Shown here: one piece after another, positions 23,223 to 57,512 of the stretch | How positions within the stretch are numbered: position 1 is the stretch's first letter | How the letters are laid out: each line of letters opens with the position of its first letter | From: Desulforamulus hydrothermalis Lam5 = DSM 18033 | Lineage (GTDB): Bacteria; Bacillota; Desulfotomaculia; Desulfotomaculales; Desulfotomaculaceae | NCBI RefSeq assembly: GCF_000315365.1 | Contig: NZ_CAOS01000008.1 | Coordinates: 62,001 to 126,000 of the forward strand | Direction: 5' to 3' | DNA: 64,000 nt | Notes under the pieces: model-generated | Told to the model about the DNA's origin: nothing | What the model saw: only the letters and a program-made list of their open reading frames with translations | Database searches by the model: none | Translations under genes and position numbers: made by a program

Positions 23223-23486
23223 CAGAGTGACGACAAACATTAGCGGTGGTTTATGATCCCCTTTGGCTCCGGTCTACGCACCGACAGCACTATGATTCGC
23301 TACGGTCGCCCTTGGGGTCGCCTCAAACGGGCCATCCTGGCCCGGTTCGGCTGGCGCCCACGTCCTGTGGGCGCCACCCCAATGGCTCCTTTCGCTCATC
23401 AAGTGCTGTTGCCGGTGCTTCGACAAGTCGCCGACAGGGGATCACAAAACCGCCTTATTTTGTTTACAACCTTTGTCTACAGTCTG
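23223..23486 (-). repeat. Terminator-associated palindromic repeat R2 (long form, 264 bp)
   Basis: An inverted copy of the element at 57249-57512, also 264 bp and closely similar along its length. Ends are CAGAGTGACGACAAACATTAG and the complement of CAGACTGTAGACAAAGG. Internal features include the hairpin GGCGCCCACGTCCTGTGGGCGCC and the inverted arms around GATCCCCT. Reading frames inside it are not conserved between copies. The 514 bp between 23088 and 23601 contain this element, its two flanking hairpins and about 100 bp of otherwise unremarkable sequence on each side. Confidence 0.85.
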
Positions 23487-45211: not shown

Positions 45212-45538
45212 TTATTTGTTGATAACCTCCAAGTAAGCATCTAAAAATTTAATAATAAAAACTTTATGTTCTTCCCCCAGAGTTAGTATTTTTTCCAGGC
45301 GCTGGTTTATTTCCATATTATTTTTGGCTTCACCTTCTACAAACAAAAGGTGGGGGCTTATGTTAAAGGCTTTGGCTATTTTATCTATTACATCAAAACC
45401 CGGGTTTCTTTCGCCTCTTTCCAAATAGCCCCAAAAAGCCTCGGAGATGCCTACCAGGGCGGCAGCCTGCCTGCGTGAAAGGTTGTTGCGAAGCCGGACT
45501 TTTTTCAAGTTATGACCAAACTTTTTAGCTATCCCCAC
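45212..45538 (-). CDS. XRE-family helix-turn-helix regulator
   Basis: A 108-residue protein with an N-terminal HTH_3 domain (about 8-65: LSRRQAAALVGISEAFWGYLERGERNP) and a short C-terminal helical tail (about 75-108). The tail may mediate dimerisation. The GTG start is preceded by GGGGGATTTTTA. It is divergent from the HD-GYP gene; the promoter of that gene lies only 35 bp upstream of this start, so it may control it or itself. The target is not known. Confidence 0.87.
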   Translation of the reverse strand: MGIAKKFGHNLKKVRLRNNLSRRQAAALVGISEAFWGYLERGERNPGFDVIDKIAKAFNISPHLLFVEGEAKNNMEINQRLEKILTLGEEHKVFIIKFLDAYLEVINK

Positions 45539-45572: not shown

Positions 45573-45601
45573 TTGAAAATCGCAACACCGTGTTGTATAA
45601 T
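45573..45601 (+). promoter_or_regulatory. Predicted sigma-A promoter of the riboswitch and HD-GYP gene
   Basis: TTGAAA (45573-45578) and TATAAT (45596-45601) with exactly 17 bp between them, a few bases before the riboswitch aptamer. Confidence 0.8.
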
Positions 45602-45607
45602 ACCGGT

Positions 45608-45735
45608 AGTATCTTAAGGGCAAACCAATCGAAAGGTTGGGACGCAAAGCCATGGGTCTAAGGCGTCAGGCTATGACTGCCAGGCTGCGGAGGAATTAAA
45701 TTTTGTCCCCTCCGGCTGTCAAGTTGGGAGGATTT
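45608..45735 (+). promoter_or_regulatory. c-di-GMP-I (GEMM) riboswitch with expression platform
   Basis: The aptamer (about 45608-45690) contains the diagnostic pieces GGGCAAACC, CGAAAGG, GGGACGCAAAGCC, GGTCTAAG and the receptor helix ending GCCAGGCTGC. In the platform, CCTCC (45708-45712) can pair either with the upstream GGAGG (45689-45693) or with GGAGG (45727-45731), which is the SD of the HD-GYP gene and is followed by eight Ts. The second pairing would both hide the SD and act as a terminator. Confidence 0.93.
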
Positions 45736-45738
45736 TTT

Positions 45739-46320
45739 TTGTTCCTTGCTGTAAAAAGACTGTATATTAAACTGCCTAAAAATATTGCCCTTCATTCGAA
45801 AAGGGTGGCCATATTTTCATATATTCTTGCCAAGCAGATAAAATTATCTGCAGCAGATTGTCAAACTGTCTATTGGGGCGGCTTATTGCATGATATTGGC
45901 AAAAGCATGATCCACCCCGGTATACTTTATAAAAAAGAAAAATTAACCGAAGCCGAATTCGCCGAAATTAAACGTCATTGCCGGTACGGCGTGGATATTG
46001 TGAAAAATATCAAGGATGTTGAGCCTGTCATACCTATTATCCAATACCATCATGAACACTGGAACGGATCGGGCTATTATGGCCTGCAAAAACATCAGAT
46101 ACCTTTGGGGGCGCGTATAGTCAGCATAGCCGATGCCTTTGATGCCATGACATCATACCGGTCTTATCAAGCAACCCGTAAAAAAGAAGATGCCCTGGCA
46201 GAGATCATGAGGTGTTCCAATACCCAATTTGACCCTTGCCTGGTTAATCATTTTATTGAAGTTTATGCCTTATTTAACTGTTATCTGGATGATCATGTGA
46301 AATTCGTTAATTTCATTTAG
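45739..46320 (+). CDS. HD-GYP-type phosphohydrolase (putative c-di-GMP phosphodiesterase)
   Basis: A 193-residue stand-alone HD-GYP domain. HDIGK (HD motif), a following histidine (KRHCRYGVDIV), IIQYHHEHWNGSGYYG and VSIADAFDAMTS are visible. The GYP triplet is GYY here, a variant seen in some members, so activity is likely but not certain. TTG at 45739 is chosen because GGGAGG lies six bases upstream; the reading frame open further upstream crosses the riboswitch platform and is not the start. Regulated by the c-di-GMP-I riboswitch, giving feedback control of c-di-GMP breakdown. Confidence 0.85.
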   Translation: MFLAVKRLYIKLPKNIALHSKRVAIFSYILAKQIKLSAADCQTVYWGGLLHDIGKSMIHPGILYKKEKLTEAEFAEIKRHCRYGVDIVKNIKDVEPVIPIIQYHHEHWNGSGYYGLQKHQIPLGARIVSIADAFDAMTSYRSYQATRKKEDALAEIMRCSNTQFDPCLVNHFIEVYALFNCYLDDHVKFVNFI

Positions 46321-46400: not shown

Positions 46401-46437
46401 AAAACATCCCGTTACATTGAGGAACGGGATGTTTTCA
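46401..46437. terminator. Bidirectional terminator (CATCCCG family)
   Basis: AAAACATCCCGTT / AACGGGATGTTTT perfect 13 bp stem between the convergent HD-GYP and GGDEF-EAL genes, with T runs on both strands. Confidence 0.9.
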
Positions 46438-48936
46438 TTTGGTGGCTAAATCAGTCCCATTGGGTACCGGCCCAGGCTTGCCAATCAGGTAGCCCTGGGC
46501 ACAGTCTATGTTAAGTTCTTTCAACTTGGCTAAATCTTGATCGTTTTCTACAAACTCCGCCACTGTCTTTTTGCCTAAGGTGTGAGCCACGGTTTGCATG
46601 GCCTGAACAAGCGCATAATGGGTATCATCCCGGTGCAGATTGCGGATAAAAGAACCGTCTATTTTTACATAATCTACCGGCAGAATTTTCAGATACGAAA
46701 AGGATGAAAAACCGATGCCAAAATCATCCAGGGAAAACCGGCAACCAATGTTTTTCAGCCTTTTAATCCAGTTGCCGGCCCTTCCCAGGTCTTTTACCGC
46801 AACTGTTTCGGTAATCTCAAAGCCCAGCCGCCAGGGTTCAATATGATTGGTATGAACGGTTTGTTCTATATAGGCCAATAATTTTTCATCCCCCAGACTG
46901 GCTCCCGATAAATTGATAAACAAACTCAAGTCCGGCCTGGCTGCCAGTACCTCCAGTGCTGATTTAACAACCCACCGGTCAATCCTGGGCATTAAACCAA
47001 AACGTTCAGCAACGGGAATAAATTTGCCCGGATAGATTAGCTCTCCCTTATCGTCCTGCATACGCAGCAGCACTTCATAGTGAATAATGTCCCTGCTGTT
47101 AATGGCAACCACCGGCTGGTAATGCAGAACAAAGCGATTTTCCTTGAGTGCTGCTTTTATTAATGTGATGATGCGGTTTGCCTCAGACAGAGAGTTTGCT
47201 TCATCCTCCGTACAGGATAAAAACACGATCCTGTTTCTGCCTGTTTCTTTAGCCCGGTAAAGAGCTGTATCGGCCAGGGCTAACAGCCGGTGAGGGGGTA
47301 TGGCCCCGTCGATCATGGTTATGCCGATACTAAGGCTGATATTAAAGCAGTGTTTATATAAAACCAGACACAGCTCGTTTTCGTCCAGCAAAGACCTGAT
47401 CTTTTCCGCCACGGCCAGGGCATCTGCCGCCGCAGCTCCGTCCAGTAACACAACAAATTCATCCCCACCCAGACGAGCTAACGTATCCTGGCTGCGCAGA
47501 TTGCTGCTGAGCAGTTCGGCAATGGTTAGCAACAGTTTATCTCCCGCGTCATGTCCCAGGGTATCATTAACAAGTTTAAAGTTATCCAAATCAATAAGCA
47601 AAAGGGCACTTCCTTTACCCTGCTTTGCTTGAGCCACCGCCTGTTTAATTTTTTCTTCTAAGAACAACCGGTTAGGCAAGCCGGTTAAAGAGTCGTGGGT
47701 AGCCAGATAGCGCAGCTGTTTTTCAACTAACTTGCGATCAGTAATATCTCTGAGGGACTTTACGGCCCCCACCAGTTGGCCTTCGTTATTGTAAAGCGGA
47801 CCGGCAGTAATTAACAGATAGGTGCCCTCCCCTTCGCCGTTAGGGGGTAAAAAAACTTCCTTGGACAATGTCTTTTCCGTAATTTTTACCAAACCATTTG
47901 CTTGGTTGGCATGGTTAAGGAATATCAAATCAACCAGCAGGGGTTGCTGTTGGTTGAGGTAAAAGGGCAGGACGGAGGCATAATTTTCTTTGCCGATAAT
48001 ATCTTCCTTGCGGACGCCGGTTATCTCTTCCATAGCCCTGTTCCAGGCAATGACTCTTTTGTCTTGGTTAATTACGAAGGTAGCATCGGGCAGGAATTCT
48101 ATTATATCCAGCAACTGCTGGTGTTTGGCGCGCAGTTCTTCTTCAGCCTTTTTGCGCTCAATGCGCATCCTTTCAAAGGCTCTGGCTAAATAACCTATTT
48201 CATCTTGTGTCTTAACAGTTATTGCTGTGTCAAGTTCTCCTTGCGCCAACAGGTTAGCATAATTAACCAGTTCCCTAACCGGTCTGACCAGTGATTTAGT
48301 CAGCAGCCAAAAAATAACGGCAGTTAAAAAAAAATTAATAATCAGGGTTGACCAGAGGTTTTTAACAGAGTTTCGGAAAATATTGTCAACATACTGGTTG
48401 TTGGCTCCTACATACCAGATGCCGATATTCCTGCCTGCTTGATCTTTAATGGGTTTATAGGCCGTTTGGTATTTGATGCCCACAACTTCTGCTTCACCGT
48501 AAAATTCCCGACCTTGTTCCAGCACTACCTGCCCAACTTCTTTTGATACCTTGGTGCCGACAGCCCGGCTGCCGTTTCTTATGACATTGGTGGCAACACG
48601 GGTATCTCCCTGAAATATGGTACAGGTATTGCCTGTCAATTTTCCCACCATATCAACAATAGCAAAATTGTTGTTCATTATTTGCCGGCCTTTGTACAAC
48701 TTGCCGTTTATTATTGCCCAGGGCCCCGGATATAAAGCGTCTAACAGTGCTTCCCCCAGCCGCAAATCACCCTTTACCTTCTCCAGGGCAGCCAGGTTGG
48801 CATTAACATGGGCCTGTTTGGTGATCCAGAACATATGCATAACTTGCACAAAAATTATGACAAGAAACAGCAGGGTTATTCTCCAACGGATTGACTTAAG
48901 GTCATAAAAACGCATTCTGGCCTTTTGTTTTTCCAT
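46435..48936 (-). CDS. Membrane Cache-HAMP-PAS-GGDEF-EAL protein
   Basis: An 833-residue sensor. Order: membrane segment (about 19-38), extracytoplasmic single-Cache-like sensor (about 40-190), membrane segment (about 193-213), HAMP (about 214-266), PAS (about 270-400), GGDEF (about 412-565) and EAL (about 585-825). The GGDEF motif is intact, with I-site RSQD five residues before it. The EAL motif reads EVL, but the other catalytic residues are present (NLSG, EITET, DDFGIG, VKIDGSF, AEFVEN). It could make or break c-di-GMP. It lies alone, convergent with the HD-GYP gene. Confidence 0.93.
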   Translation of the reverse strand: MEKQKARMRFYDLKSIRWRITLLFLVIIFVQVMHMFWITKQAHVNANLAALEKVKGDLRLGEALLDALYPGPWAIINGKLYKGRQIMNNNFAIVDMVGKLTGNTCTIFQGDTRVATNVIRNGSRAVGTKVSKEVGQVVLEQGREFYGEAEVVGIKYQTAYKPIKDQAGRNIGIWYVGANNQYVDNIFRNSVKNLWSTLIINFFLTAVIFWLLTKSLVRPVRELVNYANLLAQGELDTAITVKTQDEIGYLARAFERMRIERKKAEEELRAKHQQLLDIIEFLPDATFVINQDKRVIAWNRAMEEITGVRKEDIIGKENYASVLPFYLNQQQPLLVDLIFLNHANQANGLVKITEKTLSKEVFLPPNGEGEGTYLLITAGPLYNNEGQLVGAVKSLRDITDRKLVEKQLRYLATHDSLTGLPNRLFLEEKIKQAVAQAKQGKGSALLLIDLDNFKLVNDTLGHDAGDKLLLTIAELLSSNLRSQDTLARLGGDEFVVLLDGAAAADALAVAEKIRSLLDENELCLVLYKHCFNISLSIGITMIDGAIPPHRLLALADTALYRAKETGRNRIVFLSCTEDEANSLSEANRIITLIKAALKENRFVLHYQPVVAINSRDIIHYEVLLRMQDDKGELIYPGKFIPVAERFGLMPRIDRWVVKSALEVLAARPDLSLFINLSGASLGDEKLLAYIEQTVHTNHIEPWRLGFEITETVAVKDLGRAGNWIKRLKNIGCRFSLDDFGIGFSSFSYLKILPVDYVKIDGSFIRNLHRDDTHYALVQAMQTVAHTLGKKTVAEFVENDQDLAKLKELNIDCAQGYLIGKPGPVPNGTDLATK

Positions 48937-54654: not shown

Positions 54655-54840
54655 GATAACATGGATCCTCCAGGCAGGTCTCCTGGCTTACGGGTCATGG
54701 CCTGATAACCTGCCTTCCCGGCCTGCGGCCAGTGGCTTTAAATGGTATCGGCTCTCCGTTTACAGTGGCGGGACCGCTCGGGACTTGCACCCGATTCCCT
54801 ATTCTCCCCGGTGGGGCACCTGCAGGAATCTTTTGTTGCT
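54655..54840 (-). promoter_or_regulatory. Cobalamin riboswitch controlling cobT
   Basis: On the minus strand the conserved pieces are in order: GGGAATCGGGTGCAAGTCCC, GAGCGGTCCCGCCACTG, the variable stem, GCCGGGAAGGCAGG and GCCAGGAGACCTGCCTG. A TATAAT lies upstream on the minus strand at 54958-54963. With the terminator at 54604 it should switch cobT off when cobalamin is abundant. Confidence 0.95.
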
Positions 54841-55015
54841 GAAAGATATTTTAATAGCTCAAGCAAAATCTGGCAATATCTTTTTACTGCCGTACCGGAA
54901 ATTGCCCTTTGGCCGCCTTCCGGAACAGGCTAACACCCTCAGGCTCTTTTTTGAAAAATTATATAGACACTAAATGAAATAAGTGTTATTATTTCCAAAG
55001 AAATTCATATATGTG

Positions 55016-55215
55016 AAAGTATCAGGTACCCCCTGCGGCAGGGGGTTTAAAAGGGAATCGGGTGCAAATCCCGAACGGTCCGGCCACTGTGATGGGCTAG
55101 TTAGTTTCATTATTTCACCACTGGTTAAACCGGGAAGGTTGAAACTAGCGCTGATGCCTCAGTCAGGAGACCTGCCTGATGCTTAACTGACCCTCCCGCG
55201 GAGAGGCAAGCAGTT
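55016..55215 (+). promoter_or_regulatory. Cobalamin riboswitch controlling cbiK-cbiM-cbiN
   Basis: Plus strand pieces: GGGAATCGGGTGCAAATCCC, GAACGGTCCGGCCACTGTGATG, ACCGGGAAGGTTGAAAC and GTCAGGAGACCTGCCTGATG. Downstream, GGCAAGC (55205-55211) can pair with GCTTGCC (55263-55269) as an antiterminator, competing with the terminator at 55256. It is back to back with the cobT riboswitch, about 175 bp apart. Confidence 0.95.
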
Positions 55216-57248: not shown

Positions 57249-57512
57249 CAGACTGTAGACAAAGGTTGTGAAACAAAGTGAAGCGGTTTTATGATCCCCT
57301 GTCGGCGACTTGTCGAAGCACCGGTCACAGCACTTGATGAGCGAAGGAGCCCTTGGGGTGGCGCCCACAGGACGTGGGCGCCGGCCGAACCGGGCCAGGA
57401 GGGCCCGTTTGAGGCGACCCCAAGGGCCACCGTAGCGAATCATAGTGCTGTCGGTGCGTAGACCGGAGCCAAAGGGGATCATAAACCACCGCTAATGTTT
57501 GTCGACACTCTG
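57249..57512 (+). repeat. Terminator-associated palindromic repeat R3 (long form, 264 bp)
   Basis: Starts CAGACTGTAGACAAAGG and ends GTTTGTCGACACTCTG, with inverted inner arms GGTTTTATGATCCCC / GGGGATCATAAACC and a central GC-rich hairpin. It has the same length as R2 (inverted there) and very similar sequence. The 436 bp between cbiN and cbiL contain this element, its two flanking hairpins and the cbiL leader. Confidence 0.85.

Follow-up and report, generated by a model that had tools for sequence, protein, structure and literature searches.

When a riboswitch for the second messenger cyclic di-GMP (c-di-GMP) precedes a gene predicted to encode a c-di-GMP-degrading enzyme, does the messenger turn its own breakdown on or off? 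This question is raised by a locus in a stretch of 64,000 nucleotides (nt) from Desulforamulus hydrothermalis Lam5 = DSM 18033 (contig NZ_CAOS01000008.1, positions 62,001 to 126,000; the whole stretch is hereafter called the window), in which a c-di-GMP class I (c-di-GMP-I) riboswitch lies upstream of a stand-alone HD-GYP-type gene (Table 1). An initial annotation described a feedback loop between the messenger and its breakdown enzyme and left the direction of control open; the logic of three competing RNA strands and conservation of the locus across the order Desulfotomaculales point to c-di-GMP as an OFF signal. The explanation favoured here, with a probability of about 0.68, is that the gene is controlled by a kinetic OFF switch acting through a dual transcription/translation platform, which would favour the high-c-di-GMP state if the enzyme hydrolyses c-di-GMP.

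Table 1. Features of the riboswitch/HD-GYP locus (positions in the window)
Feature	Position	Strand	Basis
Divergent XRE/HTH_3 regulator gene, 108 amino acids (aa)	45212..45538	-	Pfam HTH_3 E 3.2e-11
Sigma-70-type promoter, TTGAAA-17-TATAAT	45573..45601	+	sequence match; kept in orthologs
c-di-GMP-I riboswitch aptamer	45610..45693	+	Rfam scan, RF01051 score, contact residues mapped by hand
Strand S1, CGGAGG: C92 and 3' strand of stem P1; Shine-Dalgarno (SD) mimic; 5' arm of predicted antiterminator A	45688..45693	+	
Strand X, CCTCCG: 3' arm of A (with 45688-45693); as CCTCC, 5' arm of predicted terminator B	45709..45714	+	
Predicted intrinsic terminator B: CCTCC/GGAGG stem extended inward by GGCT/AGTT and followed by T8	45709..45740	+	folding, shuffles, sequence
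SD of HD-GYP gene, GGGAGG, with GGAGG (45727-45731) as 3' arm of B	45726..45731	+	conserved in orthologs
Stand-alone HD-GYP-type gene, TTG start, 193 aa	45739..46320	+	Pfam, orthologs

The aptamer is a canonical c-di-GMP-I riboswitch, for which ligand binding and response are predicted. It scored 78.4 bits with the RF01051 covariance model, against a gathering cut-off of 35, and the residues G20, A47 and C92, which contact the ligand in the Vc2 riboswitch (PMC4744006), correspond to G45619, A45646 and C45688 in a hand alignment to the Vc2 sequence. The earlier description of the aptamer as textbook-like was thus borne out. The same RF01051 fold and contacts are found in Vc2 and in Cd1 of Clostridioides difficile, the latter an OFF switch (PMC6366702, PMC4744006). 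The riboswitch differs from known c-di-GMP-I riboswitches in that it controls a predicted c-di-GMP-metabolism gene, an arrangement called rare in a review (PMC6366702).

Two other identities were considered for the aptamer and rejected. The best E-value in a clan-filtered Rfam scan belonged to RF03167 (c-di-GMP-I-GGC; 68.1 bits, E 5.6e-14), but the consensus of that family has G at the position occupied by A47 in Vc2 and in the window (GGGACGCGAA in the family versus GGGACGCAAA in the window in the Rfam alignment of this region). The RF03167 label seems to be an artefact of clan filtering, and we infer that 'GGC' in the family name denotes the three contact bases. GEMM-Ib riboswitches for cyclic GMP-AMP (cGAMP) have A at position 20, where the window has G (45619).

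The promoter, initially called perfect, is a strong one that agrees with the consensus at 11 of 12 positions, so that only the epithet was slightly overstated. Since it ends at 45601, the transcript should start near 45608, almost at the start of the aptamer. An inverted repeat read from the sequence, GCAACA-CCG-TGTTGT, lies between the promoter hexamers and overlaps the -10 element, and is a possible operator; AGTT(G/A)TATAAT was seen repeatedly in promoters of relatives.

The expression platform comprises two copies of GGAGG (45689-45693 and 45727-45731) and a single shared CCTCC able to pair with either, as had been proposed, although the CCTCC lies at 45709-45713 and not at 45708. The downstream copy was also correctly recognized as both terminator 3' arm and SD, a dual role with which stem B, the T8 run at 45733-45740 and the orthologs of three other species agree. 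The ribosome-binding site thus lies within the 3' arm of a predicted intrinsic terminator, with the TTG start codon (45739) behind it, which is the arrangement of a dual platform. This TTG, 7 nt from the SD, was identified in the present analysis (the end of the gene at 46320 is as previously given), and both the TTG start and its spacing from the SD are conserved in four species of the genus. Another TTG, at 45703, would have the GGAGG of S1 as its SD, but the orthologs lack it and it was therefore discounted as the principal start.

In the proposed mechanism, strand X (CCTCCG) would capture S1 (CGGAGG), including the ligand-contacting C92, in the absence of ligand, and the resulting antiterminator A would allow RNA polymerase to read through and leave the SD free. 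When c-di-GMP is bound, the aptamer would hold S1 and C92, and X would pair with the real SD, forming a terminator that ends at the TTG start and that would also mask the SD in any read-through RNA. The pairings of the P1 5' strand with S1, of S1 with X and of X with the SD form a mutually exclusive chain, so that sequestration of S1 by the bound aptamer leaves X available to mask the SD, which corresponds to OFF. OFF logic by antiterminator disruption is standard in dual platforms (Barrick and Breaker 2007, PMC2258182) and would be shared by the window riboswitch, which differs from them in that the 3' strand of its own aptamer mimics the SD and competes for a single strand with the true SD. 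The c-di-GMP-I riboswitch Bc1 of Bacillus thuringiensis (PMC11218506) likewise affects both transcription and translation; however, Bc1, which has two terminators, regulates mcpE in an incoherent manner, whereas one hairpin with both effects in the same direction is predicted here.

The locus was surveyed in 113 genomes of the order, in which 31 stand-alone orthologs of the HD-GYP gene (E 1e-68 or better) were found; widening the genome search to the class yielded this set again. A c-di-GMP-I riboswitch lies directly upstream of 29 of these 31, and the two orthologs without one adjoin response-regulator and histidine-kinase-like genes. A homolog of the divergent XRE gene is present in 28 of the 29 riboswitch/HD-GYP units. 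No c-di-GMP riboswitch was found at 16 HD-GYP genes taken from those 31-46% identical in a protein-alignment scan of genome contigs, and no XRE homolog in the retrieved flanks of 16 HD-GYP loci outside these units. In the rest of the phylum, three further homologs are likewise accompanied by a c-di-GMP-I riboswitch, with different platforms. A literature search found no paper describing the XRE-riboswitch-HD-GYP locus, most subscription papers being outside its coverage; the order-wide locus and its predicted OFF direction are what this analysis adds.

Because the competing strands are rich in C or G, shuffle tests on single sequences are too weak, and swap tests, in which each pairing was compared with its species-swapped counterparts, were used instead on the 29 leaders. 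A species' own pairing was stronger than swapped ones both for S1 with X (p 5e-5; 5e-5 with 18 representatives) and for X with the SD (p 5e-5; 1e-4 with 18 representatives), and the P1 5' strand, too, paired better with the S1 of its own species than with that of others (p 2.5e-4; with representatives, 0.013), relatedness between species not being fully removed in these tests. In 22 of the 29 leaders, A and B draw on the same bases of X. Joint changes of the strands were seen in leader L131, where GGTAG occurs with CTACTCC and GAGTAGGAG, and in leader L130, where AGGAAAA occurs with TTTTCC and AGGAAAGGG. It is very improbable that these are chance pairings in a purine-rich leader with an inactive riboswitch: purine-rich SDs do pair readily with C-rich strands and single-sequence tests are weak, but the cross-species conservation and the swap tests speak against coincidence. 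For the pairings as a whole, conservation in orthologs is strong evidence and single-sequence folding weak. The SD-mimic design would be a simple platform, preserved in evolution through changes in its sequence.

In constrained folding of the window RNA, stem A was present in the larger part of the ensemble for RNAs ending at 45718-45726, before the SD is made, and blocking S1 at this stage cost about 6-7 kcal/mol. Several observations weigh against the OFF switch proposed above. Once the SD has been transcribed, B is more stable than A by about 4 kcal/mol at equilibrium, so the switch must be kinetic; the SD pairs elsewhere even with A enforced (model unpaired probability 0.18), and P1 is weak in the genus of the window (-1.3 to -5.4 kcal/mol). 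The folding energy of stem B is about -11 to -12 kcal/mol, a stability matched by 9 of 200 shuffled sequences; taken alone, this is weak evidence. Among the relatives, the best A and B pairings share no bases in 7 of the 29 leaders, and linker shuffles were modest, with p<0.05 for A in 8 of 29 and for B in 6 of 29.

That the B hairpin is just moderately better than shuffles would suit a platform acting on translation only, with the T-run hairpin an inefficient terminator. Leaders of relatives outside the genus have no T-run after their SD-sequestering hairpin and should therefore act on translation. Within the genus, however, three other species keep the promoter, the aptamer, the CGGAGG...CCTCCG...GGAGG series, the T-run (T6-T8) and the TTG start, and this retention of a GC stem followed immediately by T6-T8 in four species makes a purely translational platform improbable for the window.

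The weakness of P1 in the genus, together with the strength of the S1:X pairing, would also be compatible with the opposite direction, an ON switch in which the ligand favours readthrough, for example by A stacking on the bound aptamer and replacing P1. Such a switch would give negative feedback, as would be expected for a degradative enzyme. It is nevertheless rather unlikely, because A would draw on the P1 3' strand, with the ligand-contacting C92 in its outermost pair, and because P1 is clear in other families, where it competes with A for S1. A further point comes from leaders L120, L122, L125, L128, L130 and L171-L173, where the aptamer core AAAGG(G)CA has a complement downstream, TGCCTTT or TTTGCCCTTT (shuffle tests combined, p 9e-5); in these relatives, the folded aptamer is again opposed to SD exposure. 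This core pairing was tested in the window and is absent there (p 0.97). In families f4 and f5, the core-complementary strand is preceded by CGATG...GCCT, a motif that recurs in the loop of the SD hairpin.

The consequence of an OFF switch depends on the product of the gene, which is likely a phosphodiesterase, with c-di-GMP as its predicted substrate only. The 193-aa protein contains an HD domain (Pfam HD_5, E 3.6e-28) and shares with the HD-GYP protein PmGH (4mcw) the HD core and seven of the eight metal ligands; the ligands H19, H51, D52, H80, H104, H105 and D132 are invariant across 24 aligned proteins. The equivalents of PmGH residues H189, H221, D222, H250, H276, H277, D305, K225, D308 and R314 are retained. 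It differs from PmGH in having no sensory domain. Less favourable to hydrolysis of c-di-GMP are a Gln at the K317 equivalent, an Asn at the E185 position (Asp or Glu in many relatives) and the loss of the Pro of the GYP motif (HHEHWNGSGYYGL versus the signature HHExxDGxGYP). The previously annotated function therefore holds as regards the HD domain and metal ligands and is qualified by the missing Pro, the activity being a prediction.

These departures fit the alternative that the riboswitch works as described while the HD-GYP protein acts on another dinucleotide (pGpG or cGAMP) or serves as a signalling adaptor, in which case there would be no feedback loop; the OFF-switch part of the favoured explanation could still hold. 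The GYP Pro is also missing in the members and relatives that were checked (GYE, GYY, GYN and others), the loop is one residue shorter, and the best-scoring solved relative, 5z7c, is named a cGAMP phosphodiesterase. We consider this alternative unlikely, since the protein retains the seven metal ligands along with the equivalents of K225 and D308, and since the PmGH mutations P286A and K317A did not substantially reduce activity (PMC4159591).

If the protein does hydrolyse c-di-GMP, the predicted OFF switch would produce positive feedback: high c-di-GMP would reduce its own breakdown, giving a self-sustaining high state. The feedback loop of the initial annotation would then be a locking one and not ordinary homeostasis. 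We suggest tentatively, at somewhat less than even odds, that across the order the XRE gene, the c-di-GMP-I OFF riboswitch and the HD-GYP gene constitute a positive-feedback, potentially bistable switch, in which the aptamer 3' strand mimics the SD and competes for one anti-SD strand. If true, this would be a minimal RNA circuit that locks cells in a high-messenger state, and the locus offers a direct way to test whether riboswitch feedback on a second messenger is positive or negative.

On the 3' side of the HD-GYP gene, a convergent gene (46435-48936, minus strand) encodes a Cache-HAMP-PAS-GGDEF-EAL protein, so that two predicted c-di-GMP turnover genes stand side by side. The same genome contains one other above-threshold c-di-GMP-I riboswitch (L002 1501-1585), followed by a terminator-like hairpin and a gene for a pilB/GspE-type ATPase (pilus/secretion), identified from its translation. 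In the same genus, a GEMM aptamer at L029 1501-1573 with AATAGCAAACC has A at the position-20 site and is possibly a cGAMP-type variant. Elsewhere in the window, two divergent cobalamin riboswitches lie back to back about 170 nt apart (54656-54838, minus strand; 55007-55193, plus strand), and two matches to the TwoAYGGAY RNA motif exceed the gathering score (23271-23425, minus strand; 57311-57464, plus strand).
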